From the NCBI GenBank assembly GCA_038744685.1, contig JBCDMB010000002.1, positions 124,001 to 188,000 of the forward strand: a DNA stretch of 64,000 nt, written 5' to 3'. The position numbers and the translations under genes were made by a program. A model generated the notes under the pieces. It searched no databases. It was not told where the DNA came from and was given only the letters and a program-made list of their open reading frames with translations. This document shows, piece after piece, positions 1,229 to 59,980 of the stretch. The number at the start of each line of letters is the position of its first letter. The stretch's first letter is position 1. This DNA is from Verrucomicrobiota bacterium. GTDB lineage: Bacteria; Verrucomicrobiota; Verrucomicrobiia; Opitutales; Puniceicoccaceae.

Positions 1229-1244
1229 GCGAAAACGTTTTCGC
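1229..1244 (-). promoter_or_regulatory. Operator-like palindrome, site 1
   Basis: GCGAAAACGTTTTCGC is a perfect 16-bp palindrome 28 bases before the chosen start of the PEP-CTERM gene at 1200. It is the most symmetric member of a motif family found upstream of many genes here. The shape suits a LacI-type dimeric regulator; this is inference. Confidence 0.6.
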
Positions 1245-1457
1245 ATTCTTGCGGCAAAGTGTCCAACTCTCACCGAAATAGTCAACTATTTTTCAAAATT
1301 CCGCCTCTACAGAAACGCTAGCCCAAAGCAAGAAAAGCTCGATACCGGTTTCCTTGTGCACTGAACCCCAAGTAACCGCACAACAAGCTGTTCATTCTAT
1401 TTTGAGTAGCTAGGACGCGATAAGAAAAGTAAATCCGGTTGAGGTTTGATCCAAAAA

Positions 1458-1479
1458 TCCTGATCTTCCCGAATCAGGA
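1458..1479 (-). terminator. Intrinsic terminator of the three-sulfatase operon
   Basis: On the minus strand a 7-bp stem (TCCTGAT/ATCAGGA) with an 8-base loop is followed directly by TTTTT. It lies about 80 bases past the stop at 1561 of the last gene of the minus-strand sulfatase operon, the expected place for a rho-independent terminator. Confidence 0.6.
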
Positions 1480-1560
1480 CTTTGAAAACGCACCACAGCT
1501 GATACGCCTGACAAAATTTCCGGTCCGTCAGTCAATAGGTGTAGATCCGAGAACCCTAAG

Positions 1561-3171
1561 CTAGGAACTATTTTTTCTCCTGCGAATGTTTCCTTGGGTG
1601 TTCTCTTGGTTCGCCCCGTATTGAGCCCGAAGAGTCTCCAATTCGTCTTTTAAGCTGGCGACAATTCCTGAGTATTCCGGGTTGTTGTAAACATTGTTCA
1701 TTTCAGAAGGGTCCTTTTCCAGGTCGAAAAGCTCCCACTCTTCTCCTCCCGGCACATCCCGACCGTAAAAGCGGATCAATTTGTAACGACCTCCAAAAAC
1801 CCCTTCATGCCGGCGCACGCTGTGGATACCCGGATACTCGTAATAGTGGTAGTAGAGGGAATCGCGCCAATCAGATGGTTTCGTTCCTGCAAGAAGCGGA
1901 ACGATGCTCCTTCCATGAAGATCTTCCGGAACCGGCTCTCCAGCCAATTCCAAGAAGGTGCCCGCCATGTCAATATTCTGGACGAGATCCTCGTTGACGG
2001 AGCCCGGCTCGATCTTTCCGGGCCACCAGGCTATCAGAGGAGTGCGAAACGATTCTTCATACATGAATCGCTTGTCGAACCAGCCGTGCTCGCCCATATA
2101 AAAGCCCTGATCACTGCTGTAAAAGACGATTGTGTTGTCCGCCAAACCAGACTCTTCAAGGTATTCCATCAACGCTCCCATAGAGTCGTCGACCGATTTT
2201 GTCGTCCGTAAATAATCTTTGAGGTAGCGCTGATATTTCCAACGGATTAAGTCTTCTCCCTCCAGATTTGCCGCAAGGAAAGCCTCGTTTTTCGGCTGAT
2301 AGGCTGCGTTCCACGCTTTGCGCTGATCGGCGTTCATCCGCCTGATCACCCGTTTTTTCAACCTTTCTTCCTCGTCGCGTTCCTGGATTTTTAGGTCCAT
2401 TCCATAGGTCATCGTTTCCGCGATCGAGAGATCCTGCTCGCGCGCCGCCGTCGTTCTCGTCTCGTAGTCATCGAACAAATTGTCGGGCTCTGGAATCTCC
2501 ACGACGTCGTAGAGCGTCAGGTATTTTGGCGCGGGCGACCACTCCCGGTGAGGTGCCTTGTGCTGCATCATCAACATAAACGGTTTGTCTTTATCCCGCT
2601 GCGATTCGAGCCAATCCAAAGTCTTGTCCGTTATGATCTCGGTAACATAGCCTTCTTCCCGGTATTTTCCGTCACTGTTGATAAAGTCGGGGTTGTAGTA
2701 GTGACCCTGTCCCGGAAGGATGTCCCAGTGGTCGAATCCGGTCGGGTCGGAAGTGAGGTGCCATTTCCCAATAATTGCCGTCTCGTAACCAGCGTCCTGT
2801 AAGAGCTTCGGGAAGGTCTGCTGCGATCCATCAAAACGACTCTTGTTGTCGTAGAAGCCATTAGCATGGCTGTGTTTTCCGGTCAGAATCGTTGCCCGAG
2901 CCGGACCGCAGATGGAGTTGCTGACATAGGATTTATCGAAGCGCATTCCCTCGGATGCCAGACGATCCAGATTCGGGGACGGATTTAGATGGGCCATCCG
3001 ACCTCCGTAAGCACCAATCGTCTGAAAGGCGTGATCATCCGAAAACACCCAGATGATATTTGGACGCTCATTGCTCTGCGCGAGGCTGGTGAACGGCGCA
3101 ACTCCGGAAAGAGCTCCACTGAGTGCAGAAAAACGAAGCAAAGGGAGAAGGAAAGTCTTCATTGAAGTCAT
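1561..3171 (-). CDS. Secreted S1 sulfatase, DUF4976-type C-terminus
   Basis: 536 residues; a second possible start is MKTFLL at 3162. Signal peptide to about residue 31, then the calcium-binding Asp pair (SDD, 45-46) and the active-site core CGPAR with Cys88, which would be converted to formylglycine. GKWHL and, near 350, [13 protein letters not shown] supply the other metal/substrate residues. The C-terminal part ([17 protein letters not shown], then LFDLEKDP) is that of GlcNAc-6-sulfatase-like or 'mucin-desulfating' bacterial sulfatases. It is a close paralogue of the sulfatase at 8548. Last gene of a three-gene operon, 47 bases after the previous gene. Sulfatase class is secure; the sulfated sugar is not. 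Confidence 0.95.
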
Positions 3172-3218
3172 GATTCGGTTGTGGAGAAAAAACAGAAACT
3201 GCTCGACTGCTGGTCCTA

Positions 3219-4712
3219 CTAGTTACGCGAGGCGAGCGGCGGCATCTCTACCTCGGGGTCAAAGGGCTCCGCATCCGGGCTCGCATCGGGATTGGGCTTC
3301 GGAAGGTAGGCACCAACCCGTTCCAGATACCCACTTAGGTCGTCAAGGAGAGAACTTGCCGTTTCTGGCATCTGGCGAGCCAGATTCTTCGTTTCGCCCA
3401 AATCTACACTAAGCCGGTAGAGATGCGGTTCATCCGGTATTTCATAAAAGGTGTAGAGCTTGAAATCCCCCCGAATGATGGCTGAATGCGGAGTTGAGTT
3501 CCGGAGATGTGGGTAATGGAAGTAGAGGGATCTGTCGACGAAGCTTTCATCGCCTTCTTCCCTGAAAACGGGGAGAAGACTACGACCGTCAACGCGATCC
3601 TCCAAGGCCACCGAGTCGCCGCCGGCGATCTCGTAAAAAGTCGGCAGTAGGTCATAGTTGACGATGTTGATGCTCGACCTTGATCCGGGAGCGATACCAG
3701 GTCCCTCGATCATAAAAGGCACCCGAATCCCAGCTTCCCAAAGCCACCACTTGTCTCCACGAAGGACACTATCCTCTCCATTGTAGAGATCCTTGCCGTT
3801 GTCTGACGTGACGATGAAATAGGAATTGTCTCGAATCCCTAATTCCTCGAGCCGATCCAGAACCTCGCCGATTGCCGAATCCATGTCGCGGACAGCCGCA
3901 CCGTGAGTCGAGGCTTCCTTTCTAGCTCCATCTCTTTCGATTTCCACGATCGAATCGAGCGCAAGCATCCCTTCGAGAGTTTCGGGCAGCGACATCTGCC
4001 TGTTGTGTTCGGCGTAATGAGAAATCTGCACATAGAACGGCTTGCCGGCGCGGTGCTGCTCCTCGATAAATTCAATCGCTTTATCCGTCATACTGAAGAT
4101 TCGTTTTGGGTCGCTTTCGTCGATCTCGCTCTTCCTCGGTGACCCTTCGGTGTTCGAGGTTTCCCCATCACTCACATCATAGCCATGACGCTCCGGTCCT
4201 CCACCGTAGACGTGCCATTTTCCCACGTGTGCCGTTGCGTAGCCCTGTTTTTGAAGAGCCTCTCCAATCGTCACAAACTCATCCTGCAACGTTCCGATCG
4301 GACTGGGTTCGATCAGCAAGCCATCCTGGTCTCTCCTCTTGAGCTCGTAAAAAACCTCGTCGGGAGCGGAATCTCCAAAGTTACTGTTTCCGCTGAAAAG
4401 GTGACGTGCCGGCGAAAGACCGGTTTGGATGCTGGTTCGCGAAGGGGCGCACATGCCGGCTGCTGAATAGGCGTTTGAAAAAGTCATTCCCCGCTCGGCG
4501 ATGCGCTCAATGTTGGGAGTTACCCGGAAATCAGAGGTCGATTGAGGGTTTCCCTCCATCTGGGCGACCGATGTGCCCCACCACGGCATGTCATCCACTA
4601 AGACGAAAACGATGTTCGGCCTACTCTCTCCAAAACAAAAGGTACTCAGAAAACTGAAACAAAGAAGCGCCTTGAGAATGCGGGATAAAGGCAAAGGGTT
4701 TGTTTTATTCAT
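3219..4712 (-). CDS. Secreted S1 sulfatase
   Basis: 497 residues. Signal peptide to about residue 29 (ends CFGES), metal-binding VDD at 40-41 and catalytic core CAPSR with Cys88. Near residue 304 TSDNGKD is the second metal site, followed by [15 protein letters not shown]. Its C-terminal half ([16 protein letters not shown]) matches that of the larger sulfatase at 42889 (FHYPHYRNTMPHSAIV), so the two belong to one subfamily. It sits mid-operon, 19 bases downstream of the sulfatase at 4732-6483. Likely periplasmic or outer-surface; exact substrate unknown. Confidence 0.95.
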
Positions 4713-4731: not shown

Positions 4732-6483
4732 TTACTGAAGACGCTCCAGGACGAGAAGGCGGAAATCCATCACTTCTCCATTCGGAACCTTCTCGGCAAC
4801 GAGCCTCATCACTTGAGGGCCAGCGGACAGGTCGATCTCTCCAATCTCTTTTTCCTTAAAGCGCTTCACATACGATTCTTTTCGAGGAGAGCGATCATCC
4901 TCCGCCCCCAGCAAAGGCGGGTCATGGGGTTCATCGATGACAAAATCGAGTCGGTTCCCAGCTGACTCAAGGGTTACCTCTGAGCCGACGCCCGCTTCCG
5001 AGCAGGTGTAGTAGAGAGTGGCTTTGAACCGGCCATCTTCGGGCACCTCGGCTTTCCATGAGATGCTCTCACCTTCCCGCTTCCAATTCGTGAAGTAGGA
5101 GCAATTCGCCCATTTGCTGCTCCGCTCAATTCCACCACTGGCTTCTCCATCCCGTGCCGGGAGGTGGGTGTAACGAGCATCAGGGTGTCCAACGATGAAA
5201 GGACGGTCGTCCTCCTTGCGTGGGCTGAGTTCGGACAAAACATTTTTCCGGTAGTCTTCAATTGCCCTACCCAGTGTTTCTGCAACTTCCGGGTAGGTAT
5301 TGGTGACTTCCTTTGTCTGCCCCGGATCCGCCTCGATATCAAAGAGCTTACCCCGCTGGTCGAGACGGAACCGTTGGTTGCGGGCGCTCTGTCTCTTGCC
5401 CCAATGGCTCACGACGATGCGGTTTGTCATGGGTGTATCCTCGTCCTTCAACCAAGGAAGTTTGGAGATGCCATCGAGCGGTTTTTCGCTGGTAAAACTC
5501 AAGCCGGTCAGCTCAGTCAGCGTGGGGAGCAAATCGACCGCTGAAGACAAAGAATGAACCACGGTTCCGGGCGCGATTGCCGCCGGGTAGCGCACGTGCA
5601 AAGGGGATTTCACACCCCCCTCGTCAACAGCCCCTTTCTTTCCTTTGAGCCCGTCATTCCACCGCGGCCCGTTGGGTCCATTGTCGTTGAAGTAGATGAC
5701 AATCGTGTCTTCAGCGAGGCCCAACTCGTCAAGTTCGTCGAGAACCCGCCCGACGTTCCAATCAATGTTCTCGCACATCGCAAGGGCCGCCCTCGTATGG
5801 TCGTCGGGGCGTCTTTGCAATTTTAGATCCTTATCTTTGAACCGGTCCCAGTATTCATCCGGCACCTGCATCGGAGAATGCGGGGTATTGTAAGGCAAAT
5901 AGACAAAAAATGGTTCGTTCCTGTGCTCGCGGATGAACTCCATGGCGCGGTTGGTAAAATCATCGACACAAAACCCCTCACCTTGAACGACCTTGCCATT
6001 GTGCTCGAGCATGGGATCAAAATAGTTTCCCCAATGGCCGGAACAAAAACCGTAGAACTCGTCGAATCCCCGAGCATTCGGATGGTAAGGATACTGCATA
6101 CCATTGTGCCACTTTCCAAAAGCTGCAGTCGCGTATCCGGCCTCCTTGAAGACATCGGCGATCGTTACTTCGTCTACATCCATGCGCTCTCCTCCCTCAC
6201 TCGTCGAATAGACATTGCTCCGAGGATGGAAGCGCCCGGTTAAAAACTCAGCCCGTGTTGGAGAGCATACGGGACTTACGTAGAAATTCATGAACCGAGC
6301 GCCTTCCGTAGCCAAACGGTCGATATTCGGAGTCGCCATGTCCGTGTTCCCGGTGATCGAAAGGTCGCCCCAGCCCTGATCGTCAGACAGGAAAATGACT
6401 ACGTTGGGCGGTCGCGCGTCAACGGGTTTCAGGAGCGTAACGAGGGAGAAAAATACGACCGAAAAAAGGAGAGAGACTTTCAT
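4732..6483 (-). CDS. Secreted S1 sulfatase with C-terminal jelly-roll-like extension
   Basis: 583 residues and first gene of the minus-strand sulfatase operon. Signal peptide to about residue 23, metal site SDD (34-35), and a classical CSPTR core with Cys73 followed by AEFLTGR. The sulfatase domain ends around residue 425. The remaining ~150 residues (SKWANCSYF..., ISWKAEVPEDG..., LSAGPQVMRL) look like a beta-sandwich, probably carbohydrate binding; the sulfatase at 47146 carries a comparable tail. Expression is probably set by the 180-base divergent promoter shared with the gene at 6664, which holds operator-like site 2. Confidence 0.95.
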   Translation of the reverse strand: MKVSLLFSVVFFSLVTLLKPVDARPPNVVIFLSDDQGWGDLSITGNTDMATPNIDRLATEGARFMNFYVSPVCSPTRAEFLTGRFHPRSNVYSTSEGGERMDVDEVTIADVFKEAGYATAAFGKWHNGMQYPYHPNARGFDEFYGFCSGHWGNYFDPMLEHNGKVVQGEGFCVDDFTNRAMEFIREHRNEPFFVYLPYNTPHSPMQVPDEYWDRFKDKDLKLQRRPDDHTRAALAMCENIDWNVGRVLDELDELGLAEDTIVIYFNDNGPNGPRWNDGLKGKKGAVDEGGVKSPLHVRYPAAIAPGTVVHSLSSAVDLLPTLTELTGLSFTSEKPLDGISKLPWLKDEDTPMTNRIVVSHWGKRQSARNQRFRLDQRGKLFDIEADPGQTKEVTNTYPEVAETLGRAIEDYRKNVLSELSPRKEDDRPFIVGHPDARYTHLPARDGEASGGIERSSKWANCSYFTNWKREGESISWKAEVPEDGRFKATLYYTCSEAGVGSEVTLESAGNRLDFVIDEPHDPPLLGAEDDRSPRKESYVKRFKEKEIGEIDLSAGPQVMRLVAEKVPNGEVMDFRLLVLERLQ

Positions 6484-6571
6484 GGAGTGAGTAACAAAAT
6501 CGCGCCAATTGACTGGCAGCCATGCACCTCACGGCAAAAGATGCATGAGAACTGTTGCCGTAGGGTTTTGA

Positions 6572-6585
6572 CTAAACGATTAATC
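6572..6585. promoter_or_regulatory. Operator-like motif, site 2 (divergent promoter)
   Basis: CTAAACGATTAATC lies between the divergent sulfatase genes starting at 6483 (-) and 6664 (+). The same AAACGATTAATC string recurs at site 3 upstream of the Verru_Chthon-A-like gene, and its reverse complement core is at site 8. Confidence 0.5.
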
Positions 6586-6663: not shown

Positions 6664-8532
6664 ATGCGACGTATTCCTGCATTCATTTGCCTGGCGTTCC
6701 TGTCCGCTTTCTGGACCGGAAATGGGCTTGCCAATATCGACGGAGGCGAACCCGATGCGGATCGTCCAAACATTCTTTGGATCGTAAGTGAGGATAATGG
6801 CCAGTTTCTCGGCTGCTATGGAGACGAAAATGCCAAGACGCCGAATCTCGACAAGCTGGCCGAGGACGGGATCGTTTACACCAATTCCTTCGCTAATGCT
6901 CCCGTGTGTGCCGTCGCCCGCAGCAGCTGGATCTTCGGTATTCCTGCGGTGACCCTTGGGACACACCACATGCGCTCGCAATACCAGGTGCCAAGAAAAG
7001 AATTTACGACCTATCCGGAAGTCATTCGAGAGGAAGGCTACTACGCCACAAATCGGCACAAGACCGACTACAACACGGCGTCGATAAAGAAGAATCGGAT
7101 TTGGGACGTAAGCGGCCAAAAGGCACACTACAAAAATCGGCCGGATGGAGTGCCCTTTTTCGCAATCTTCAACCTCACACAGAGCCATGAGAGTGGCATT
7201 TTTTCCGGCAATCAAACAAACCCGCGTCTAGCTGCAGAAGATATCGAAGTGCCCCCCTATCAAAGTCCAACGCCGGAAACGGTGATGGACTGGAGGCGTT
7301 ACTACGACCGTCTCGAGTTGATGGACAAGGAGGTCGGGAAGATTATTGAAGAACTGGAGAGGTCTGGAGAGCGCGAAAACACGATCATCGCCTATTGCTC
7401 CGACCACGGCGGAGTGACTCTTCGGAGCAAGCGCTTCCTCCACGACACCGGAACCCGCGTTCCGCTGATCGTCAATTTTCCCGAAAAGTGGCAGCACCTC
7501 GCCCCCGAGCCACCCGGCACCGTTTCAGACCGTCTGGTCCAATTTATCGATATGCCCAAGACCTGGATCTCCCTCACGGGTGGCACGCCGCCTCCGCAGA
7601 TGAACGGGCGCATCTTTCTCGGAGAGGATATCGAACCGGCTCCGGAAGTCGTTTTTCTCTTCTCCTCCCGTTTTGACGAAGCACCGGACACATCGCGTGC
7701 GATTACCGATGGTCGCTGGAAGTACATCCGGAATTTCGAGTCGGATCGCGTGCGCTTCCAGATGCTCGGATATCCTCTGCGGCATGCGGGCCAAGTCAGT
7801 CAATACGAAGCCTTCGCCGCCGGTAAAACTACTCCAGCACAGTCTGCACACTACCAACCTCAACCGTCAGAGGAACTCTACGACACCGCCTCTGATCCAC
7901 ACGAGATCAACAACCTAGCGACTACGGAAACCGAACAACTGCAGCTCATGCGTGAACTTCTCGACAAGCAGATTATCGAAACTCGTGATCTCGGTTTCAT
8001 GCCCGAGCCTCTAATGGAGAAAATTGACCGGACAAGGGGACAAACGGTTTACGAATTCGGTCAATCGGATGAGAACTACCCGATTGAGGAATTACTTGCT
8101 CTTGCCAAGCTCGCGTCGGAAAAAAATCCGGTAAATCTCCCTGCTTTTACGCAAGCTCTCCAAGACGAGAACGAGTGCATTCGCTACTGGGGTGCCGTCG
8201 GTCTACGAGCTTTGGGCGAAGACGCCCGTCCAGCGCAAAGCGAGATCGTAGCGGCGTTAGACGATCCGAGTCCGAGTGTAAGGATCACAGCTGCAGTTTC
8301 ACTGGGCCAAATTGGAAAGCGTGACCAAGCTCTCGATTTCCTCGTCGGTGAGGCCGAAAATGCAGAAGGGCCGATCCACTCGATGTGGGCTTTGGATGGT
8401 TTAAAACTTCTCGACGGCGGTGGTGCCATCGTCAATCGGCCAAAGTCGTCTCTTGCGAAGGGAAAATATGCTGAGGACATCTACGATGCCCTCAGTGCCG
8501 GCGGCTCTGCTACTCGAAAACCTCAAAGTTAA
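6664..8532 (+). CDS. Secreted S1-like sulfatase with CxVxR core and C-terminal HEAT repeats
   Basis: 622 residues. Signal peptide to about residue 23. The domain opens with RPNILWIVSEDNG, where Glu43-Asp44 replace the usual Asp pair, as in N-sulfoglucosamine-sulfohydrolase-like groups. The active site reads CAVAR (Cys82, Val84), so the Pro/Ala normally needed at the third position is Val. The metal motif CSDHGG and the GTHHMRS segment are intact. Residues ~505-590 (RYWGAVGLRALGE..., VRITAAVSLGQIG) form two or three HEAT-type helical repeats, probably for protein contact. First gene of the plus-strand run, 15 bases before the next. Family membership is secure; catalytic maturation is uncertain. 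Confidence 0.9.
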   Translation: MRRIPAFICLAFLSAFWTGNGLANIDGGEPDADRPNILWIVSEDNGQFLGCYGDENAKTPNLDKLAEDGIVYTNSFANAPVCAVARSSWIFGIPAVTLGTHHMRSQYQVPRKEFTTYPEVIREEGYYATNRHKTDYNTASIKKNRIWDVSGQKAHYKNRPDGVPFFAIFNLTQSHESGIFSGNQTNPRLAAEDIEVPPYQSPTPETVMDWRRYYDRLELMDKEVGKIIEELERSGERENTIIAYCSDHGGVTLRSKRFLHDTGTRVPLIVNFPEKWQHLAPEPPGTVSDRLVQFIDMPKTWISLTGGTPPPQMNGRIFLGEDIEPAPEVVFLFSSRFDEAPDTSRAITDGRWKYIRNFESDRVRFQMLGYPLRHAGQVSQYEAFAAGKTTPAQSAHYQPQPSEELYDTASDPHEINNLATTETEQLQLMRELLDKQIIETRDLGFMPEPLMEKIDRTRGQTVYEFGQSDENYPIEELLALAKLASEKNPVNLPAFTQALQDENECIRYWGAVGLRALGEDARPAQSEIVAALDDPSPSVRITAAVSLGQIGKRDQALDFLVGEAENAEGPIHSMWALDGLKLLDGGGAIVNRPKSSLAKGKYAEDIYDALSAGGSATRKPQS

Positions 8533-8547: not shown

Positions 8548-10137
8548 ATGTGGTTTCGAAGTGTTTTGAAAGGCTGCACAGCCGCGTTCTTGTTGGTCTC
8601 TCTGGTTGCGCGTGCCTCTGAGGAATCCCGACCGAACATCGTCTGGATCTTTTCCGACGATCACACGTATCAGGCAATTGGTGCTTATGGCGGTATCTTA
8701 GCCGAGGTTGATCCCACTCCGAATCTCGACCAGCTCGCTGCCGAGGGCATGCGATTCGACAAGAGTTACGTTGAAAACTCGATCTGTGCCCCTGCCCGGG
8801 CCACTCTCCTCACCGGCAAATTCAGCCACGTCCACGGGAAGTTCGACAACCACAATCGATTCGACCACAACCAGCAGCAGTTTCAGAAAATCCTTCAGCA
8901 AAACGGCTATCAAACGGCAATGATCGGGAAGATCCATCTCGCCGGGAAGATGCAGGGTTTCGACTATTGGGAGGTTCTGCCAGGACAAGGTTCTTACTAC
9001 CAACCCGAATTCATCACTGAGGAAGGAAGGGAAACCTACGAAGGCTATGTAGCGGATATTATCACCGAGAAGTCCATCGATTGGCTCGAAAACAAGCGGG
9101 ATCCAAATGAACCGTTTATGTTGATGGTTCATCACAAGGCCACTCACCGTACCTGGAAGCCTGCACCGCGGCACGTCGGCCTGTTTGATGACATCACCCT
9201 TCCGGAGCCGGAAACACTTTTCGATGACTACTCCAATCGAGGGGTAGCTGCCGCAGGGCAGGACATGACCATCGCCCGGACTATGCGCCCGCAGACAGAT
9301 CTGAAACTCCGGACAGCTGCTGATATCGCCGCCGGGGATAAAAAGTTCTCGGGGAGAAACAAGCTTCCCGGAGGTGAAGAAGGAGCCTATTTCCGGATGA
9401 CGCCCAAACAACGGGAGATTTGGAATGCAGCCTACGACCCGCGGAACCAAGCTTTTTTCGACGCAAATCTCGAAGAAGGAAGTGAGGATTGGGTTCGCTG
9501 GCGCTATCAACGATACGTCAAGGATTACCTCCGCACCGGCATGAGTATCGATGAAAGCGTGGGAGAGATTGTCGAATACTTGAAAGAGTCCGGACTCGAT
9601 CAGAACACGATTGTCCTGTATTCCTCGGATCAGGGATTTTATCTGGGCGAACACGGCTGGTTCGACAAACGCTTTATGTATGAAGAGTCCTTTCGGACCC
9701 CCTTGATTGTAAAGTGGCCGGGTTTAACTCAGCAAGGGAGCGTCAACTCTGATCTGGTTCAGAACATCGATTTTGCTCCAACCTTTTTGGATTTGGCTGG
9801 TGCGCCCATCCCCGATGACATGCAGGGCGAAAGCCTGGTCCCCTTGTTCAAGAATGAAACTCCCGAAAACTGGCGGGACTCGGTCTACTATCATTACTAC
9901 GAGTATCCGGGAATCCACGACGTTCGCCGTCATGAGGGAGTGTTCGATGGTCGCTGGAAACTCATTCGTTTTTACGGTCCTGATGTACCGAACGGAGAGG
10001 AATGGGAGCTTTTCGATACCGTAAACGATCCCAATGAACTGACCAGCGTCTACAGCAATCCCGAGAACGCTCCTCAAGTTTCTCGGCTCACTGATCAGCT
10101 TCATTTTCTCAAAGAAAAATATGACGTCCCCGATTAG
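8548..10137 (+). CDS. Secreted S1 sulfatase, paralogue of the one at 1561
   Basis: 529 residues with signal peptide to about residue 24, SDD at 37-38 and core CAPAR with Cys80. [28 protein letters not shown] and the tail [20 protein letters not shown] are nearly the same as in the sulfatase at 1561-3171. This copy has an extra loop around residues 250-280 (RTMRPQTDLKLRT...). It follows the HEAT-repeat sulfatase by 15 bases, so the two are probably co-transcribed. GlcNAc-6-sulfatase-like assignment is by family resemblance only. Confidence 0.95.
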   Translation: MWFRSVLKGCTAAFLLVSLVARASEESRPNIVWIFSDDHTYQAIGAYGGILAEVDPTPNLDQLAAEGMRFDKSYVENSICAPARATLLTGKFSHVHGKFDNHNRFDHNQQQFQKILQQNGYQTAMIGKIHLAGKMQGFDYWEVLPGQGSYYQPEFITEEGRETYEGYVADIITEKSIDWLENKRDPNEPFMLMVHHKATHRTWKPAPRHVGLFDDITLPEPETLFDDYSNRGVAAAGQDMTIARTMRPQTDLKLRTAADIAAGDKKFSGRNKLPGGEEGAYFRMTPKQREIWNAAYDPRNQAFFDANLEEGSEDWVRWRYQRYVKDYLRTGMSIDESVGEIVEYLKESGLDQNTIVLYSSDQGFYLGEHGWFDKRFMYEESFRTPLIVKWPGLTQQGSVNSDLVQNIDFAPTFLDLAGAPIPDDMQGESLVPLFKNETPENWRDSVYYHYYEYPGIHDVRRHEGVFDGRWKLIRFYGPDVPNGEEWELFDTVNDPNELTSVYSNPENAPQVSRLTDQLHFLKEKYDVPD

Positions 10138-10218: not shown

Positions 10219-11703
10219 ATGTTTCCGAAGTCCTTAATTTTTTTCTGCAGCACCTTTGGGTTTAGCGGATTCGCCTACTCTTCTGACTCTGCCGAAGAGT
10301 CCGCTCCTCCCAACGTCCTTTTCATTATTTCGGACGACCTGAATACCGCTTTGAGCGGGTATGGGCATCCACAGGTCAATACTCCAAACCTCGACAAACT
10401 CGCGGAATCCGGGGTGAGCTTCACGAATGCTTACTGCCAGTTTCCGCTCTGCGGCCCTTCTCGCGCTTCGCTCTTCTCGGGCCTTTATCCGGAAAAAACC
10501 GGCATCCTCAAAAACAACGTCAGCCTAGCCGACGAGATTGTCAGCCTACCTCAGCATTTTGCGGACCATGGCTACTGGAGTGCCCGTGTAGGGAAGATCT
10601 ATCACATGGACATCCCGCACGATGTGATCATGGGCACCGATGGTGCGGACCACGCGCCTTCGTGGGACGAGAAACACAATATTCGTTCACTGGAAACCTT
10701 TCACCCGGGTCTCGTATCCAATGTAACTGCGCCCCCGACCGTGCAGCTCTACCCGGAGTTACGCGATCAATGGGACCAGGACACCTTGAATCTAAAAGCA
10801 GTCAAACAGCTGAGAGGTCAGCACAGTTGGGTGATTGTCCAAAGCACGGAAAGAGATGAAGAACTCGCCGACTCCCTCGCAACCGACAAAGCGATCTCTA
10901 TTCTCAAAGAACGCGCCGAAGACAAGCAGCCTTTCTTCCTCGCCGTCGGGCTCGTCCGCCCCCACTTCCCTTTCGTGGCACCGAAAGCAGATTTTGATGA
11001 CTATCCAGTTGAGGCGATGGAGATACCGGAAGTTTTGCCCGGCCAGCTGGAGAATGTCCCGCCACAGGCGTTAAGCCGAGACCTCAAGATTGGTCAGAGA
11101 GAGCGGCAGGAGATTCTCCAGGCCTACTACGCGTGCATCACCTACATGGACCGACAGGTGGGCCGCCTCGTGGAGAGCGTCGATCAGCTTGGACTGCGGG
11201 ACAACACCATCATCGTCTTCGTTTCTGATCACGGTTATCTCCTCGGAGAACATCTCTCATGGAAGAAGAAACTTCTTTGGGAGGAAGCTACCCGTGTTCC
11301 TCTGATCATCTCTGCGCCGGGAATGGAGAATCCCGGAAAGCACTCGGATCACCTCGTAGAACTCGTCGATCTCTACCCCACACTGACCGCACTTGCTAAC
11401 TTGCCAGAGCAATCCGCAGTTCAAGGCCTAAACCTCGAACCTCTGCTATCCGATCCGACGGACGGGACTCTTGAGCGGAAAGATGCTTTCACCCAAACTG
11501 CAACCAGCTACGGCCTTCGCCAAGGCAAGTGGGCTTACATGTGGTATCCGAAGGTCCGTAAAAACCCAGAGGGTTTTACACTCTACGACATGGAGAAGGA
11601 CCCTAACCAACGCTACAACTTGGCCACCAACCCCGAGTTTGATCCGATTCGCTCGGATTTACACGTGCGTCTCCTCGAGCGAATCGATCTGGCGAAAAAG
11701 TAA
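10219..11703 (+). CDS. Secreted S1 sulfatase, iduronate-2-sulfatase-like
   Basis: 494 residues. Signal peptide to about residue 20-27; the metal site ISDDLN (39-40) and QFPLCGPSRASLFSG (Cys78) are the signature of the iduronate-2-sulfatase-like group, as is SDHGYLLGEHLSWKKK further on. The C-terminal YDMEKDPNQRYNLA box is the normal family end. It lies 81 bases after the previous sulfatase and 18 bases before the giant DUF5060 gene, consistent with one operon. In marine polysaccharide degraders this subfamily acts on many 2- or 3-O-sulfated sugars, so iduronate need not be the substrate. Confidence 0.95.
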   Translation: MFPKSLIFFCSTFGFSGFAYSSDSAEESAPPNVLFIISDDLNTALSGYGHPQVNTPNLDKLAESGVSFTNAYCQFPLCGPSRASLFSGLYPEKTGILKNNVSLADEIVSLPQHFADHGYWSARVGKIYHMDIPHDVIMGTDGADHAPSWDEKHNIRSLETFHPGLVSNVTAPPTVQLYPELRDQWDQDTLNLKAVKQLRGQHSWVIVQSTERDEELADSLATDKAISILKERAEDKQPFFLAVGLVRPHFPFVAPKADFDDYPVEAMEIPEVLPGQLENVPPQALSRDLKIGQRERQEILQAYYACITYMDRQVGRLVESVDQLGLRDNTIIVFVSDHGYLLGEHLSWKKKLLWEEATRVPLIISAPGMENPGKHSDHLVELVDLYPTLTALANLPEQSAVQGLNLEPLLSDPTDGTLERKDAFTQTATSYGLRQGKWAYMWYPKVRKNPEGFTLYDMEKDPNQRYNLATNPEFDPIRSDLHVRLLERIDLAKK

Positions 11704-16377: not shown

Positions 16378-16379
16378 TC

Positions 16380-25830: not shown

Positions 25831-25860
25831 GGGCTTTTGGGTAAGGATAAGATAGCTTGG

Positions 25861-30955: not shown

Positions 30956-30963
30956 AATTGAAG

Positions 30964-40553: not shown

Positions 40554-40858
40554 GTCGAGAGATATATCCGATGAGCCCGGTCACAGTAAACAGTTCGGAC
40601 CATCCACACTCACTAAGAGGCACCGCGTAGCCGAGTCAGGACTCGCCTTCTTTCGACTGAGCGGCCTACGAGACAGATCGGCGACGGCGACGAAGGGCAA
40701 CGACGGAGAGAGCCAGAAATCCGACAAGCATCCCCGCAACCGACGGCTCAGGAATGACTCCAATCGTGATTGAAGAGACGCGGATCTGGTTCGTCGTACT
40801 CGGGTTTGTAACCGCAAACTCTTTTCCGTCGGGTGCGGGGATATCGAATGTAGCCGGA
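40554..40858. repeat. Duplicated segment, copy B
   Basis: It starts with a degenerate copy of the GH67/GH20-like gene's last codons (VERYIR, stop, ARSQ, stop against VERDIRWARSQ, stop in copy A) and runs into the 3' part of the PEP-CTERM gene at 40666. The coding relic shows that the duplication copied from the left-hand locus. Confidence 0.8.
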
Positions 40859-41376: not shown

Positions 41377-41390
41377 AGTTTCAAAAAGAG

Positions 41391-41403
41391 GTTAAACGTT
41401 TAG
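41391..41403 (-). promoter_or_regulatory. Operator-like motif, site 6
   Basis: The core TAAACGTTTA (41393-41402) is a perfect 10-bp palindrome directly upstream of the PEP-CTERM start at 41376, close enough to block transcription or mask the leader. Confidence 0.55.
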
Positions 41404-41464
41404 TTAAAACAGTGGGAAACAATGAGAAGATTGTCAATCGCTAGATTCAGCGTGCTTCTGCCCT

Positions 41465-42772: not shown

Positions 42773-42833
42773 GATGGTTTGAAGGTTGGGAAGACTTTTG
42801 AAATAGAGCGAACCACAATCGTCTCAATATTGG

Positions 42834-42847
42834 TTGAACGTTTTACC
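42834..42847. promoter_or_regulatory. Operator-like motif, site 7
   Basis: TTGAACGTTTTACC lies in the 116-base divergent promoter between the DUF1080 gene (-) and the four-gene sulfatase operon (+), about 42 bases before the start at 42889. Confidence 0.45.
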
Positions 42848-48924: not shown

Positions 48925-49021
48925 AGATTTCATAAACCGAAAACTCTCTGGCGGGTGATATCCTATCAATGACTGCATGCCTCGCCAATAATCGGATATC
49001 AATTACTTGTAACGTCCATGG

Positions 49022-49032
49022 TTAATCGTTTT
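49022..49032 (+). promoter_or_regulatory. Operator-like motif, site 8
   Basis: TTAATCGTTTT is the reverse complement of the AAAACGATTAA core of site 3. It lies 39 bases before the start chosen for the PEP-CTERM gene at 49072. Confidence 0.45.
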
Positions 49033-49071
49033 TTCTTGACGACCAGACCTCTTCATTGCAGCCTTCTTGTA

Positions 49072-49764
49072 ATGGCAAATTCCAGAATTTTCCTCAAGGT
49101 AGTTTTACCCCTCTTTCTTGCGTCCGTCTCCTACTCTCAAGTCACGATCAGTTGGATCCAAGGTTCGCAAGATAACGCTGGCTCGGGGGTATCGCACACC
49201 CTCTCAAACCTCTCGGGGAGCGTCACTTTAGCGACCGACCCGGTCTTGTCATGGGGTGCTTTGTCGTCCGATCTTTTTTCTACGCCTTCAACCGGGTTCA
49301 TCGAAATCGTTTACGATGGGCGTTTGAGTTTCGACCCCAATGATTTCGCGAGCGGAACAGACTCAGGAGGGAATTCACTTCGGACCAACAGCAGCGGACT
49401 TGGAATTGCGGGAGGTAGCAACGGTAACAATGCAGGAGCAGGTGACGCTTTACTGCTCACCTTCAACTTTACCGACCTCACAGCCGGAGCACAAGTAGTT
49501 GTAACCGGATATTCGTCAGGCATAAATGGTCTGCAGCTCTGGGAAGACGGAGCCTCTAGTGCGTCTGCAAGCGGCAGCACTGTGGCGGGACAGAGTATTG
49601 TGATCGAGGACGGAGATACGATCGCTCTCTACGTGGCGAGTGGAGCGGGTCGAATTGGAAGCTACACCCTCGACATCATTCCAGAGCCATCTAGCTTTGG
49701 GATGATCGCAGGTATAGGAGCCGCAGTTCTGGTCCTCACCCGAAGGAAAAAGCGGATATCCTAG
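49072..49764 (+). CDS. PEP-CTERM sorting domain surface protein
   Basis: 230 residues from MANSRIFLKVVLPLFLASVSYSQ, a compact signal peptide. The in-frame ATG at 49018 would add 18 residues and place site 8 inside the gene. The body contains GFIEIVYDGRLSFDPNDFASGTDSGG and GLGIAGGSNGNNAGAGDALLLTFNFTDL, the same arrangement as in the PEP-CTERM proteins at 40666 and 52087. IPEPSSFGMIAGI, a hydrophobic helix and RRKKRIS end it. Function unknown. Confidence 0.88.
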   Translation: MANSRIFLKVVLPLFLASVSYSQVTISWIQGSQDNAGSGVSHTLSNLSGSVTLATDPVLSWGALSSDLFSTPSTGFIEIVYDGRLSFDPNDFASGTDSGGNSLRTNSSGLGIAGGSNGNNAGAGDALLLTFNFTDLTAGAQVVVTGYSSGINGLQLWEDGASSASASGSTVAGQSIVIEDGDTIALYVASGAGRIGSYTLDIIPEPSSFGMIAGIGAAVLVLTRRKKRIS

Positions 49765-52086: not shown

Positions 52087-52854
52087 CTACCGGCGGCGGC
52101 GAAGAAGCACCAACGTAAAGGCGCCTAAGCCGATCAAACTCGCGTAAGCAGACGGTTCAGGCACGATGACGAACTGCCAATCCTTCAAACTTTTCGTACC
52201 GGAACCCTCCGCCCAGAAAGCAAATTGGTCCCCGTCAAGGACCTCTCTGTTGTTCAAAGGCCATATAACGCTGCTTCCCGGCGCGAATTCACTCCCGTCA
52301 ATTATTTGGATGGGGGTCGTGGGAGTTCCAGCGACGTTACGATACTGCAAGTTGAGGTTGGCACTGGTGTCCCTCACCCTTGTGTTCACAATCGCTAGAA
52401 ATTCTCCGTCCACCAAATTTAAGTTCGTGGTGTCAAATTCGAAGATGATTGCCTCTCCGGCCCCAATACTCAAACCACCACCTCCGTCGTTCAAACCCCA
52501 GCCGTTAGCATTGTTTGTCTCAATGAAATTTCCAGTGCTTCCGCCACTCCAATCAACAGGATTAAACGCAGTATCATTGTCGCCAAGCCCAACGATAGTC
52601 ATTTCAAAAGTCCCAGTAGAGCTGATAGCACCAAAACTCCCTCCAGAGCCGCTTATTGACAGGCTGTTCGTATCGTCTGGGTTAATCGCTGTCTGAACAA
52701 CCGTATCCGCGACGACGTCGAACTGGAACGTCGCATTGGCCGTCAAACCTGAGCCTCCAGTTGTCATGTCGAACGTGAACTGCGAGTGGGCCGAGAGCCC
52801 AAACGCCGCCGTTCCAACCAAAACTGAAAGGAATCCTGGGGAAAATACATTCAT
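52087..52854 (-). CDS. PEP-CTERM sorting domain surface protein
   Basis: 255 residues from MNVFSPGFLSVLVG; the ORF start 147 bases upstream would include site 9 and a Cys/Arg-rich non-signal leader. Signal to about residue 25 (LSAHSQ). Mature motifs include STGTFEMTIVGLGDNDTAFNPVDW and NGWGLNDGGGGLSIGAGEAIIFEFDTTNLN, again the pattern of the 40666 and 49072 proteins. The tail is IVPEPSAYASLIGLGAF and RRRR at the very end. Confidence 0.88.
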   Translation of the reverse strand: MNVFSPGFLSVLVGTAAFGLSAHSQFTFDMTTGGSGLTANATFQFDVVADTVVQTAINPDDTNSLSISGSGGSFGAISSTGTFEMTIVGLGDNDTAFNPVDWSGGSTGNFIETNNANGWGLNDGGGGLSIGAGEAIIFEFDTTNLNLVDGEFLAIVNTRVRDTSANLNLQYRNVAGTPTTPIQIIDGSEFAPGSSVIWPLNNREVLDGDQFAFWAEGSGTKSLKDWQFVIVPEPSAYASLIGLGAFTLVLLRRRR

Positions 52855-53327
52855 GGCTTTAACAGATTTCAGGGTTTCAGTGATTAGCTCAAACCGTAGA
52901 TCTCGAAAACACTGATTGCAATAGCAAAAACGTTTTATCATCCTGCACATTCTCGACTCAATTGAGCAATCTTTTCGGAACCACCACACCAATCCAACCA
53001 CCGAAGGTCATTTCGATTCACATAATTTTCCTACTCTTAGCCACTAATTTCCCACCCGGGTTTCCCTGTCCCACTGTGTATCGCCAGCCTTGCTCCTCTT
53101 TTTGGAGGAGAGCGAATTTACATCGCAGCGGATTTCGAAGCGGACGATGACTCTGGGCGCGCTCAAAGCTAGTCGCTTACCGCCTACGATCCCAATGACG
53201 CTAAAGAAACCAAGGAAATCGTCCTCCGCATTATCGACGGAGAATAGCTCGAAACCAAAACCTCAACCGTCTTGATTCAAAACTAGCCGATCATTGTCCT
53301 GTTCACTCCTCCCCGAAAGAACCCCCT
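52855..53327. other. 473-base divergent region with an operator-like site and a possible gene relic
   Basis: Site 9 lies at its left end. From about 53099 to 53287 one plus-strand frame reads YIAADFEADDDSGRAQ, stop, SLTAYDPNDAKETKEIVLRI, stop, and ends with another stop. The wording looks protein-like but is interrupted, so it may be a relic of a secreted protein. I could not identify the family. Confidence 0.35.
52926..52939 (-). promoter_or_regulatory. Operator-like motif, site 9
   Basis: AAAAACGTTTTATC lies 71 bases upstream of the PEP-CTERM start at 52854. Its right half ACGTTTTATC is shared with site 5. Confidence 0.5.
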
Positions 53328-56639: not shown

Positions 56640-58109
56640 TTAGTTTCTCCGGGCTCTCCTGAGCCAGTTCCGATATTCGGGGCGTTTTTCAAGTTCTTCA
56701 AAGTAAGGCTCGTAGCGATCGTCCTCGCTCCAGAAATGTCGAACAGCATAGGAATCCAGCGGCAACACCATACCCTCCGGATAGTCTCTCCCTGCGACGC
56801 TTTCTTCGACGGAAGCTTCCCACTGACGATAGGTCTCCAGCATGGACTGGTAGCGCTCTGGGTACTTCTCCGCCACATTAGCTTGTTCAGACGAGTCATC
56901 TGCTAAATCGAAAAGCAGGAATTCCTCTCTGCGATTTTTGGAGGATTCTTCCTTCGTCCGGTCCTTTGCTCGGATCAGTTTAAAGTTGTTATCAATCAAC
57001 GCCGCCTGGCTGCCAAAGCGAAAGGCAATGGGTTTCTCCCTCGGCCTCGCTTCACCCTGAAAAAGAGGCTGAAGACTGATGCCGTCGATCGGTTGGACAA
57101 AGACCTCATCTGGCAGACCACATAGTTCAGCGATGGTCGGAAAAATATCCATCGTAGACGCAGGATATTCGGTGATCCGGGGGCGAATCCCCGCTGGCCA
57201 TTCAACTATGCAGGGGACTCGTAGACCACCCTCCCAGAGGCTGCCTTTGTGACCTCGAAGGCCGCCGGTTGTTTCGGGCGTGATTCCATTCAGTCCGCCA
57301 TTATCACTGCAAAACCAGATAAGCGTATCGTCTGCCACTCCAAGCTCCCGCAACCCAGCTCGTAAAACGCCAACGCTGCGATCAAAAGCAACCAGCTCAC
57401 CGTAGTGCTCGCGACTTTTTTGATCGAGCCCGGCGAACGCCTGCTGATCTTCTTCGCTGGCAACGAACGGACTGTGCGGAGACCCATCCCAAATCACCGC
57501 AAAAAACGGTTTCCCAGCCTCTGTCGCGCGAGCAACAAACTTCAGAGCCTCGTCAACGATCACTTCCGAGCTATCTCCTTCGAAGGAGGCAAACTCTCCG
57601 TTTCGGCTCAAAAGCGGATCGACGTCAAAATAATTGCTAACGGTCAACCATTCTTCAAAACCAAAGACTCCCGGACTATGCTTGTCATCGGCAAATAGAG
57701 GCACCCCCGGACCACGAAGGCCGTTGAGATGCCATTTCCCAAAATGGCCGGTCGCGTACCCAGCATTGCGAAGCGCCGCTGCAAGAGTCTTTTCCTGCAA
57801 GCGCAACGCGTGGCCGTGGCCGGGAACGCCACTGCGATCACTGTGCCGTCCGGTGAGAACACTCGCACGGGTCGGCGAGCAAACGGGTGCACCTGCATAG
57901 AAACGATCAAACCGTAATCCATTTGCGGCCATCGCATCCAAGTTCGGTGTCTCCAAAACCGGGTGATCATAGTATCCCGTCTGACCCCAGCCCTGATCAT
58001 CCGTCATGATCAGAACGATATTCGGCGGTTCGGCAGATGCGCCGAGTCCTGAAGCCAGCCAGAGTGACAGTGCAACAGGCTTAAGAAGGGAAAATCCCAT
58101 AGGGATCAA
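56640..58109 (-). CDS. Secreted S1 sulfatase, arylsulfatase A/GALNS-like
   Basis: 489 residues; MGFSLL at 58100 is an alternative start. Signal peptide to about residue 26 (GASAE), TDDQGWGQTGYY at the metal pair (37-38), core CSPTR with Cys77 and RASVLTGRHSDRSG. GKWHLNGLRG and CSDNGGLNGI...EGGLRVPCIVEWP complete the site. A C-terminal block with GFVLPLDSYAVRHFWSEDDRYE-like wording ends in a basic tail. It begins six bases after the stop of the preceding sulfatase, so the two are co-transcribed. Confidence 0.95.
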   Translation of the reverse strand: MIPMGFSLLKPVALSLWLASGLGASAEPPNIVLIMTDDQGWGQTGYYDHPVLETPNLDAMAANGLRFDRFYAGAPVCSPTRASVLTGRHSDRSGVPGHGHALRLQEKTLAAALRNAGYATGHFGKWHLNGLRGPGVPLFADDKHSPGVFGFEEWLTVSNYFDVDPLLSRNGEFASFEGDSSEVIVDEALKFVARATEAGKPFFAVIWDGSPHSPFVASEEDQQAFAGLDQKSREHYGELVAFDRSVGVLRAGLRELGVADDTLIWFCSDNGGLNGITPETTGGLRGHKGSLWEGGLRVPCIVEWPAGIRPRITEYPASTMDIFPTIAELCGLPDEVFVQPIDGISLQPLFQGEARPREKPIAFRFGSQAALIDNNFKLIRAKDRTKEESSKNRREEFLLFDLADDSSEQANVAEKYPERYQSMLETYRQWEASVEESVAGRDYPEGMVLPLDSYAVRHFWSEDDRYEPYFEELEKRPEYRNWLRRARRN

Positions 58110-58115
58110 TCGGGT

Positions 58116-59558
58116 CTAAAGCGTCTTGCCGATGGACCGACTGGCGGGAGTGTCGCGGATCGCCTGTAGCAATTTCTGACCCTCGGCAACTACCTCGGGG
58201 TATTGCTTACTTACATCGTCCTTCTCACCGGGGTCGGTTTCCAAGTTGTAGAGCTCAATCCTTTTCGCGTCCCTCCCCGGCACCTGATCATCGATCAGCT
58301 TCCATGGACCAAACCTTAGCGCTTGGCGCCCGAGCGCATCACGCATTACCAGATGCGGACGCGTTGAAGCCTTTTCCGGGTGGAGAAGTGACTGGGCGAA
58401 CGAAAAACTATCGGGCGCCGTTTCCAGCGGTAAATCCCGAACCCCGTTGATCTCTGCAATCGTCGCGAATAAATCTGCGGTGCTCACTTTTGCCTCACTG
58501 CGGACTCCACCTTCGACCACTCTTGGGTAGGCCACAATCATCGGCACCCGCAGACCACCTTCGTAGATGACGTGCTTATCGCCCCGCCAATCACCGTTGA
58601 TATCCAGCCCGGCCTCGAGGGCCTGCACCTCAGGACGTTTGTGATTCTTGTCGCCGGGGATATCGCCCCCGTTGTCGCTGGTGAAAATGAACACCGTGTT
58701 GTCGAGTTGTCCCCGAGCCTCAACAGCTGCCATCAAAGCGCCAACGGAGTCATCTATGTCGTGGATAAAATCACCGTAGGTGCCGGCTGCACTTCCCCCG
58801 AAGTTTTTTGCGGAAGGCATGACCGGGTGGTGCACACTTACCGCTGCGAAATATAGGAAGAACGGCGTGTCTAAATCCACCTGATTGATCCAGTCGATCG
58901 CCCTCTGGGTGGTCTCTGCCATGACTTCTGGTTCATCTCGTTGGGGAGCGTCGTAGCCAAAATATTGTGTCCCGTAGAAACTTTTTCCATAGGGTGAGAT
59001 ACGATCAGAGCGGAGACCATAAACACCCCGGTTTTCAATGTAGACTTTGTGTAAATCGTCCATGTTGTTTGGAACTCCGAAGTGATAATCGAAGCCCACG
59101 TCGTTCGGCCCAGGCCGAATTTCGCCGAGGAGGTTTTTGAAGCGCTCCGCATGGTAACCGAGGTGCCATTTGCCCACTTGAGCGGTTTGGTAGCCAAGTT
59201 CCTGCAACCAGCTTCCGATAGTCGGAGTTGCCGGATCAATCAGCAAAGGATCAAACGAATTAACGACACCAGATTTTAGCCGGGTTCTCCACGAATACTG
59301 CCCCGTAAGCATCGCATAGCGGGTTGGCGAGCAGACCGATGCTGTCGTCGACGCATTGTCGAAAGTCACTCCTTTCTCAGCCAAAACGTCGATAAAAGGA
59401 GTCTCAATCAGCTCCGGATTTGCTCCGTAAGGCCCTGTGCTGCCCCATCCGAGATCATCCGCCATGTAGATGATGATATTTGGTCGGGACGCTTGCAGAT
59501 GGGAAGCCGCAGAAAGGACTAAAGCAGACGCGAACAAGAGAATCGAATTACGATACAT
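58116..59558 (-). CDS. Secreted S1 sulfatase, arylsulfatase-like
   Basis: 480 residues from MYRNSILLFASALVL; the ORF start 90 bases upstream adds a leader without signal features. Signal to about residue 23 (HLQAS), MADDLGWGSTGPYG at the metal pair (34-35), core CSPTR with Cys76 followed by YAMLTGQYSWRTRL. GKWHLGYHAERF, TSDNGGDIPGDKNHKRP and EGGLRVPMIVAYP are the remaining active-site blocks. It is first of a two-sulfatase minus-strand operon, divergent from the sulfatase at 59983. Confidence 0.95.
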   Translation of the reverse strand: MYRNSILLFASALVLSAASHLQASRPNIIIYMADDLGWGSTGPYGANPELIETPFIDVLAEKGVTFDNASTTASVCSPTRYAMLTGQYSWRTRLKSGVVNSFDPLLIDPATPTIGSWLQELGYQTAQVGKWHLGYHAERFKNLLGEIRPGPNDVGFDYHFGVPNNMDDLHKVYIENRGVYGLRSDRISPYGKSFYGTQYFGYDAPQRDEPEVMAETTQRAIDWINQVDLDTPFFLYFAAVSVHHPVMPSAKNFGGSAAGTYGDFIHDIDDSVGALMAAVEARGQLDNTVFIFTSDNGGDIPGDKNHKRPEVQALEAGLDINGDWRGDKHVIYEGGLRVPMIVAYPRVVEGGVRSEAKVSTADLFATIAEINGVRDLPLETAPDSFSFAQSLLHPEKASTRPHLVMRDALGRQALRFGPWKLIDDQVPGRDAKRIELYNLETDPGEKDDVSKQYPEVVAEGQKLLQAIRDTPASRSIGKTL

Positions 59559-59853
59559 AGGTTTAGGGGTCAGTAGGAGTGAAGAGAAACAGACTTGTTT
59601 ACAACTATTTGGATGCGTGAACGCAGACCTTATTTCAATAAAACCCAAAGTTAATGATTTTTCTAAAAACAGCGGCGGAGTTTTGCACTTGTATCTTGGA
59701 AATGCCTTCGGTTATTCGATGAGGTCCACTTGAAAGGTCATAGATGCGTTGTTTACGTATTCGATAAAGCCTTTCCTGAATAATCCCCTCTCCAGACTTA
59801 ACGCCCTCTCCATAGCCTTTCCGATTTTCTACCTTGGTTAAAAAAATCATGAT

Positions 59854-59866
59854 GAAACGTTTTGTC
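59854..59866 (+). promoter_or_regulatory. Operator-like motif, site 10
   Basis: GAAACGTTTTGTC lies about 117 bases before the sulfatase start at 59983, with site 11 downstream. The pairing of two sites would suit a looping repressor or an activator/repressor arrangement. Confidence 0.45.
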
Positions 59867-59967
59867 ACAATGAATTGCCAACAGGCAATCAAAACTTGGA
59901 AAGCTCTGACACGGCAAAATCCGGGAAGATATTCCGGCCTACGGCCCACTCATTCTTCAACCAACAC

Positions 59968-59980
59968 AAAAACGTTTCTT
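59968..59980 (+). promoter_or_regulatory. Operator-like motif, site 11
   Basis: AAAAACGTTTCTT ends two bases before the ATG at 59983. At this place it would overlap the ribosome site, so a bound protein would block the leader; alternatively it is a chance match. Confidence 0.4.

Follow-up and report, generated by a model that had tools for sequence, protein, structure and literature searches.

Predicted LacI-type operators mark a putative glycan-utilisation programme in a Verrucomicrobiota draft genome

A 64-kb stretch of a Verrucomicrobiota draft genome (C2:124001-188000, that is, contig C2 of a 3.64-Mb assembly in 56 contigs), called the window here, carries one short palindrome in front of sulfatase genes, PEP-CTERM genes and a giant pseudopilin-like gene. 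This raises the question of whether genes of such different kinds answer to a single regulator, as the initial annotation had proposed in suggesting a LacI-type regulon of surface proteins and glycan-degrading enzymes. With considerable confidence, the palindromes can be read as predicted operators for a single regulator of the LacI family, most probably the protein encoded at C40:9771-10829, that mark a glycan-utilisation programme. About 20 predicted operators are spread over C2:59.7-184 kb, and a further one lies on contig C40 between the lacI gene and a sodium:solute symporter gene. Computation provides the operators and their position ahead of genes, and shows that the motif is kept near lacI orthologs and that target genes are conserved. 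The proposed LacI type is borne out by the even, CG-centred palindrome, by a candidate lacI gene with an adjacent site and by the conserved motif and targets. The proposed union of surface proteins and glycan enzymes under one regulator holds for one glycan-degradation programme on about 125 kb plus the regulator contig, and not for sulfatases or PEP-CTERM genes in general.

The palindrome in the window and along the genome

Once oriented to one strand, AAACGTTT and AAACGATTAATC are a single motif, and the consensus of the sites is a 16-bp palindrome of approximately GATWAAACGTTTWATC. There are 10 copies of AAACGTTT in the window, against a mean of 1.42 in 100 dinucleotide shuffles (maximum 5; none of the 100 with 10 copies). 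A symmetrised 16-bp matrix was trained only on the 11 window sites named in the initial annotation, all of which are present within a few bases of where they had been placed. In this matrix the core AA[A/T]CG[T/A]TT is almost invariant, G and C stand outermost and weaker columns lie in between. The two central columns are C and G at 0.97 each, which is the form taken as LacI-type (an even palindrome of 16-22 nt with a central CG). LacI-type sites are described, in the available part of PMC4052901, as even palindromes with a central CG, typically 140-30 bp upstream of genes. The matrix sites of the window are as follows.

1229-1244: predicted operator GCGAAAACGTTTTCGC, a perfect palindrome, before the PEP-CTERM-like gene 313-1200; 19.1 bits, training site
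6570-6585: predicted operator between divergent sulfatase genes 4732-6483 (minus) and 6664-8532 (plus); 20.1 bits, training site
22950-22965: predicted operator before the giant pseudopilin-like gene 19011-22916; 20.9 bits, training site
25859-25874: predicted operator before the Gfo/Idh/MocA oxidoreductase gene 24478-25830; 19.4 bits, training site
30961-30976: predicted operator immediately before sulfatase gene 29519-30955; 21.0 bits, training site
32984-32999: palindrome inside the glycoside hydrolase family 38 (GH38) gene, about 550 bp past its start, operator or chance; 19.5 bits
36841-36856: predicted operator before gene 37058-39175 (plus); 19.7 bits, non-training site
41390-41405: predicted operator before the PEP-CTERM-like gene 40666-41376; 18.7 bits, training site
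42832-42847: predicted operator between the divergent PF06439 gene 41465-42772 (minus) and sulfatase gene 42889-45255 (plus); 17.3 bits, training site
49020-49035: predicted operator before PEP-CTERM gene 49072-49764; 19.6 bits, training site
52924-52939: predicted operator before PEP-CTERM gene 52087-52854; 22.0 bits, training site
59851-59866: predicted operator between divergent sulfatase genes 58116-59648 (minus) and 59983-61488 (plus), starts uncertain; 21.1 bits, training site
59966-59981: second predicted operator of the same divergent pair; 16.9 bits, training site

The strong intergenic site at 36841 had been overlooked in the initial annotation. Two copies of AAACGTTT inside genes had been reported correctly (27888 and 32988, the latter belonging to the palindrome at 32984) and a third, at 396, had been missed; those at 396 and 27888 have no palindromic extension and score below 6.5 bits.

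When the matrix was run over C2:40001-240000, nine sites of at least 16 bits were found outside the window, eight of them in noncoding DNA, which makes up 11.6% of the sequence (p 2.6e-7); the ninth (87756) lies 18 bp within the called start of a sulfatase. At a threshold of at least 14 bits, 8 of 11 outside sites were noncoding. None of 500 column-permuted matrices reached nine outside-window sites (mean 0.38, maximum 4), and simulating the 200 kb ten times with a Markov-3 model yielded 0-4 sites compared with 22 in the real sequence, training sites included. A matrix scan of this kind had been suggested in the initial annotation, and it places strong sites in noncoding DNA upstream of genes, in held-out DNA too; no random spread between coding and noncoding DNA was seen on the C2 stretch.

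The position of the sites relative to genes points in the same direction. For 29 of the 36 noncoding strong sites on C2 and in two relatives introduced below (G083 and G132), the distance to the following called start is 10-150 bp. Twenty of the 36 fall in divergent gaps, which make up 32 of the 158 gaps of at least 30 bp, and convergent gaps contain none. Genes were called with our own hexamer-based caller, which missed some (e.g. 40666-41376), so that a few of these distances are overestimated and the exact position of some starts is uncertain.

Genome-wide, bare AAACGTTT is only slightly over-represented (108 places vs 81 for the reversed control), and the excess is thus local and resides in the longer palindrome. 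The pattern GRWNAAWCGTTT occurs at 44 places vs 14 for its reversed control, and all 44 were classified. Nineteen fall on C2:59-190k, where 17 are noncoding, every one of these scoring at least 16 bits, and the other two are coding and weak. Of the 25 places elsewhere, 8 are noncoding, 7 reach 16 bits and 3 do both: C40:10868 beside lacI, C4:110743, which precedes a Glt-type symporter gene that is then followed by a sulfatase gene, and C7:1656. The stretch and the rest of the genome differ in score (Fisher p 5e-5) and in noncoding share (1.4e-4). Since 9 of the 17 noncoding C2 sites of this pattern are training sites, the matrix scan outside the window is the cleaner test. Many of the scanned stretches of this genome, and those of relative G151, were picked by pattern matches.

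Is the palindrome then a general mark of either gene class? This possibility was rejected, as the sites cluster on one stretch and only 4 of the 56 PEP-CTERM matches in this genome (E 0.5) have a site of at least 16 bits close upstream (C2:116815, 164684, 173678 and 176093). A fifth match, C3:258617, has a 15.8-bit site at its called start, and the marked window gene 313-1200 lies outside the 56. By our own count, 32 of 74 sulfatase matches are on C2:59-192k.

A candidate regulator and its conservation

The search for a regulator covered the LacI helix-turn-helix (HTH) family, for which the genome has three matches (C40:9771-10829, C2:217519 and C7:120156). The C40 gene encodes a protein of 352 amino acids with PF00356 (LacI HTH) and PF13377 (sugar-binding, periplasmic-binding-like), both above cut-off. 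A 19.7-bit site (C40:10868) lies about 40 bp after this gene and before the sodium:solute symporter gene, which is followed by genes for a GH99-like protein (27.1 of 33 bits, below the Pfam cut-off) and a 2-keto-3-deoxy-6-phosphogluconate (KDPG)-type aldolase. A LacI gene with a site at its own promoter had been suggested as a check in the initial annotation; the C40 gene does have an adjacent site, which stands after the gene and not before it, and sites on both sides are found in G083 and G132.

Matches to the C40 LacI at E 1e-50 occur in 20 of 372 genomes of the order, this one included. In nine other genomes the orthologs are 49-55% identical, in G183 over part of the protein only. When the protein was compared with named genomes, three loci were recovered; one of them, L123 from a Puniceicoccales metagenome-assembled genome, has more than 50% identity along part of the protein. 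G083 and G132 belong to two other families of the order (f22 and f11, respectively). In both, sulfatases cluster around the lacI ortholog, which is flanked by matrix sites, one on each side, and all matrix sites of at least 16 bits around lacI are noncoding (8/8 in each). Without any use of the matrix, the noncoding DNA of both regions has AAACGTTT as the most enriched of the 256 palindromic 8-mers, with 11 copies seen vs 0.24 expected in one region and 9 vs 0.26 in the other; the two p values are 1e-11 and 3e-15. Similarly, it ranks first in the pooled lacI contigs of G234, G200 and G254 (6 seen vs 0.29 expected, p 6e-7), and AAACGTTT is absent from six control loci of G002 and G003 that contain other LacIs. 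In these two same-genus genomes the ortholog is absent (best LacI relatives at about 30% identity or less), and the pattern GATWAAACGTTT, found 9 times in this genome (control 1), occurs 0 and 1 times (controls 1 and 1).

The targets are conserved as well. Relatives contain matches to the symporter (44-73%), the GH99-like protein (65-76%, closest match in each), a beta-helix protein (46-60%) and several sulfatases, and the GH38 gene has an adjacent operator in G083, G132, G234 and G200. A PEP-CTERM gene of G083 has an 18.2-bit site 35 bp before it.

Several observations weigh against this interpretation. The lacI gene is on another contig and, in this genome, is preceded by no site of at least 14 bits, which gives no indication of autoregulation. 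Four strong sites off C2 sit within genes (C4:34501, C9:85384, C16:41344 and C22:12326), and GH38, the best conserved target, has here only its in-gene site and a weak 15.4-bit site in the divergent gene. The G083 and G132 regions were chosen after sites near lacI were already known there; the G254 lacI contig has no AAACGTTT despite its ortholog and adds no site to the pool; and the regions examined in G089, G163 and G242 showed no AAACGTTT enrichment. Further, whole-genome counts of AAACGWTTWNTC in 24 genomes fail to separate ortholog-bearing from ortholog-free genomes (G083 10 vs 6 for the control, G132 15 vs 12, G089 5 vs 10 and the ortholog-free G003 14 vs 7); the two groups are separated by local clustering only.

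It might also be that the regulon is real and its sites are read by another protein, either the LacI encoded at C2:217519 or C7:120156 or a member of another regulator family, which we consider improbable. The C2 lacI gene shares the contig with the operators, about 34 kb from the last strong site, but no site of at least 14 bits was found in the scanned stretches around the two genes (C2:188-240 kb and the 3-kb C7 locus), AAACGTTT is not enriched right of the window, and the recognition helices of the two proteins (SRVTVSA and SRWTVSR) are unlike the conserved SIATVSN. On these grounds both were rejected as the regulator. A promoter element or structural DNA signal of highly expressed genes would be compatible with sites upstream of genes and none in convergent gaps. 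However, the palindrome is confined to one stretch of the genome, is missing at five other loci of the giant-gene family in this genome, is CG-centred and even like most LacI-type motifs (in the part of PMC4052901 available) and accompanies the lacI ortholog into other families, which makes this alternative very unlikely. Least credible of all is chance: any closely read 64-kb window yields some motif, and this one was picked after the window had been viewed, but it recurs in held-out sequence, both on this contig and in other families, which contradicts a fortuitous origin.

For the preferred reading, control by the C40 LacI, the helix of the protein is of further interest. SIATVSN is found in seven orthologs (this genome, G083, G132, G151, G254, G234 and G200); G089 has SIATVSK and G242 has SIATVSY. 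The varied residue (N, K or Y) presumably corresponds to Arg22 of E. coli LacI. Three of the AAACGTTT sites in the G089 stretches examined read GGAAAACGTTTTCC, GGAAAACGTTTTCA and AGAAAACGTTTACC, and a fourth copy, GCAAACGTTTGG, is also present there. In the first three, all six half-sites have G or C at the sixth position from the centre, a degenerate column in the window motif. At C1:2348688 and C1:2395813 of G089 (L169 and L226), where the helix is SIATVSK, the palindromes read AAGGAAAACGTTTTC. The sites are few, but they agree with an altered contact by the varied residue, and a paired change of protein and DNA in G089 is possible from the sequences.

The repertoire of LacI proteins also differs within the genus, with 3 matches at E 0.001 in this genome vs 29 and 43 in G002 and G003. 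One regulator has many operators here, and many LacIs are found in the same-genus relatives.

Proposed mechanism, substrate and relation to known systems

The LacI dimer would bind the palindromes and repress the genes when no substrate is present. A sugar derived from the polymer would then bind the periplasmic-binding-like domain and cause LacI to release the DNA. Sulfatases, glycoside hydrolases, lyase-like enzymes and the symporter would thus be induced together with the giant GspK-like protein and a small number of anchored PEP-CTERM proteins. This would provide the cell with enzymes to desulfate the polymer and cut its chains, with a route of import, and with surface anchors and a pilus-like part. 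A sulfated glycan that contains alpha-mannose is tentatively suggested as the substrate, because the most conserved targets are GH38 and the GH99-like enzyme. In Bacteroidota, diatom sulfated alpha-mannan is degraded by two sulfatases, GH195 (a distant relative of GH99) and GH92, according to the available part of PMC13063451. Sulfatases, a GH99-related enzyme and an alpha-mannosidase are thus common to Polaribacter and the present programme. However, Polaribacter uses GH195 and GH92, whereas here there are GH38, a GH99-like protein below cut-off and far more sulfatases. The likeness to diatom mannan may serve as a lead on the substrate.

The regulon is of an ordinary kind, with an unusual layout and unusual members. 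With the local LacI-family sugar regulons in the portion of PMC4052901 available it shares an even 16-bp palindrome with central CG, placement at 10-150 bp, a regulator with an HTH and a sugar-binding domain, carbohydrate targets and a site beside the regulator gene. It differs from them in layout, with roughly 20 predicted operators that extend over 125 kb and a regulator encoded on a different contig, and in cargo, which counts sulfatases, PEP-CTERM proteins and a giant pseudopilin-like protein among its members. The main text of that paper does not contain the word Verrucomicrobia. Mucin utilisation loci (MUL) of Akkermansiaceae (PMC13174399, available in part), from the same phylum, likewise tie pilin-like proteins to glycan use. 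There, the proteins are MUL2A (archaeal type IV pilin-like) and MUL2B (a PilM protein), and the text available names no LacI or PEP-CTERM protein, whereas here a giant GspK-like protein stands in an operator-marked programme. Transcriptional control of PEP-CTERM genes has been reported for RpoN in relation to floc formation (PMC9850573, in the part available); here, in contrast, a sugar-type regulator marks a few PEP-CTERM genes within a degradation programme. No paper describing LacI control of sulfated-glycan genes or PEP-CTERM genes in this phylum was found in a search that reached few subscription papers.

New elements are a candidate for the regulator, the conserved site that goes with it and the connection of PEP-CTERM and GspK-like proteins to such a regulon. 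Sulfatases that had stood in no relation to each other, and proteins whose role is unknown, are thereby brought into a single programme that can be tested, for which a candidate regulator, its DNA site and conserved targets are at hand, and PEP-CTERM proteins and the giant pseudopilin-like protein acquire a nutritional context. Further, the palindrome beside a lacI ortholog offers a simple finder of such programmes in relatives.

Genes of the programme and the giant GspK-like protein

The window genes assigned to the programme are listed below.

313-1200, minus: PEP-CTERM-like protein, C-terminus PEPS...RRR, under curated cut-offs
4732-6483, minus: sulfatase (PF00884), followed by sulfatases 3219-4712 and 1561-3171 on the same strand
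6664-8532, plus: sulfatase (PF00884), followed by sulfatases 8548-10137 and 10219-11703 on the same strand
18271-18984, minus: small partner gene after the giant gene; 36.5% match to the gene after the G132 ortholog
19011-22916, minus: giant protein, putatively a GspK-like pseudopilin
24478-25830, minus: Gfo/Idh/MocA oxidoreductase (PF01408)
28498-29493, minus: HAD-type hydrolase (PF13419), conserved programme member, 74-82% in G083, G132, G234 and G200
29519-30955, minus: sulfatase (PF00884)
32434-35247, plus: GH38 alpha-mannosidase-like protein (PF01074), conserved programme member, 72-80% over 937 amino acids in G083, G132, G234 and G200
40666-41376, minus: PEP-CTERM-like protein, PEPS...RRR end by eye, under curated cut-offs
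41465-42772, minus: PF06439 protein (3-keto-disaccharide hydrolase, former DUF1080)
42889-45255, plus: sulfatase (PF00884)
49072-49764, plus: PEP-CTERM protein, TIGR02595 at 16.8 of 16 bits, PF07589 over cut-off
52087-52854, minus: PEP-CTERM protein, TIGR02595 at 18.2 of 16 bits, PF07589 over cut-off
58116-59648, minus: sulfatase (PF00884), followed by sulfatase 56640-58109 on the same strand
59983-61488, plus: sulfatase (PF00884), followed by sulfatase 61523-63106 on the same strand

The genes downstream of the sites are as the initial annotation had described them, except that only two of the four marked PEP-CTERM-like genes (49072-49764 and 52087-52854) pass the curated cut-off and that gene 19011-22916, labelled Verru_Chthon-A-like there, scores below the cut-off of that family. 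No strong site accompanies 39772-40521, the window's best-scoring PEP-CTERM gene; the best match there scores 9.0 bits, at 39520. A structure predicted from five PEP-CTERM sequences had a mean predicted local distance difference test (pLDDT) score of 41.1 and was not used. Among the Pfam-scanned window genes, to which the search was confined, there is no SusC/SusD pair.

The giant protein scores 19.9 of 332.3 bits against Verru_Chthon A (TIGR02600) and 16.3 of 130 bits against GspK (NF037980), below the curated cut-off in both cases; within its family, 2 of 22 members match the former and 3 of 22 the latter at E 0.01. A literature search on 'Verru_Chthon' gave no match. By eye, its N-terminus resembles a prepilin signal. 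A model of a paralog (mean pLDDT 56.3), compared by a second-look aligner, placed three GspK structures on top, with Z 9.3 (168 residues aligned, root-mean-square deviation 15.0), 8.2 (211, 3.4) and 7.9 (202, 3.7), and the next match at Z 3.5. Foldseek with the same model returned nothing at E 0.001, and a profile of the giant family had no matches among PDB sequences at E 1. The low-confidence model suggests, through the second-look aligner only, a resemblance to GspK pseudopilins.

The family has six members in this genome (merged match pieces), and 21 and 45 match pieces occur in the same-genus genomes. A small gene of 129-268 amino acids follows the giant gene in all 20 loci examined, some cut by the end of the stretch; homology of the small genes was compared for the window and G132 only. 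G132 matches the giant gene at 38.6%, has the small gene after it and has an upstream site of 22.6 bits. Neighbours of the giant family include sulfatase, GH2, GH3 and GH43 genes. At the five other giant-family loci of this genome there is no noncoding AAACGTTT, and thus the operator belongs to the glycan programme and not to the giant family. Proximity of giant genes to LacI genes (within 5 kb) was not significant: for G003 the count is 5 of 29 against an expectation of 2.4 (p 0.087), and for G002 it is 2 of 12 against 0.87 (p 0.21).

A rather doubtful reading is that the giant protein and its small partner might form a substrate-specific, exchangeable tip module of a type II secretion or type IV pilus-like machine. 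Every glycan programme of these bacteria would then encode and control a tip of its own, along with a small set of anchored PEP-CTERM proteins, for capturing or secreting whatever the glycan in question requires. This would be comparable to Bacteroidota, in which there is one SusCD pair per locus. The operators before the giant gene here and in G132, the six members in this genome and further ones in relatives, the glycan-gene neighbours and the constant small gene favour such a module; the non-significant proximity to LacI genes in G002 and G003 and the other loci here without AAACGTTT speak against it.

Two further observations concern individual programme genes. A 423-amino-acid protein with no Pfam match, encoded at C2:61580-62851 (L050:1580-2851), has matches of 62-68% in G083, G132, G234 and G200, adjoining an operator in three of these four, and is probably an unnamed enzyme of the programme. 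In the window, the in-gene palindromes at 32152 (15.4 bits) and 32984 (19.5 bits) flank the start of the GH38 gene about 830 bp apart, and might serve as a looping pair.

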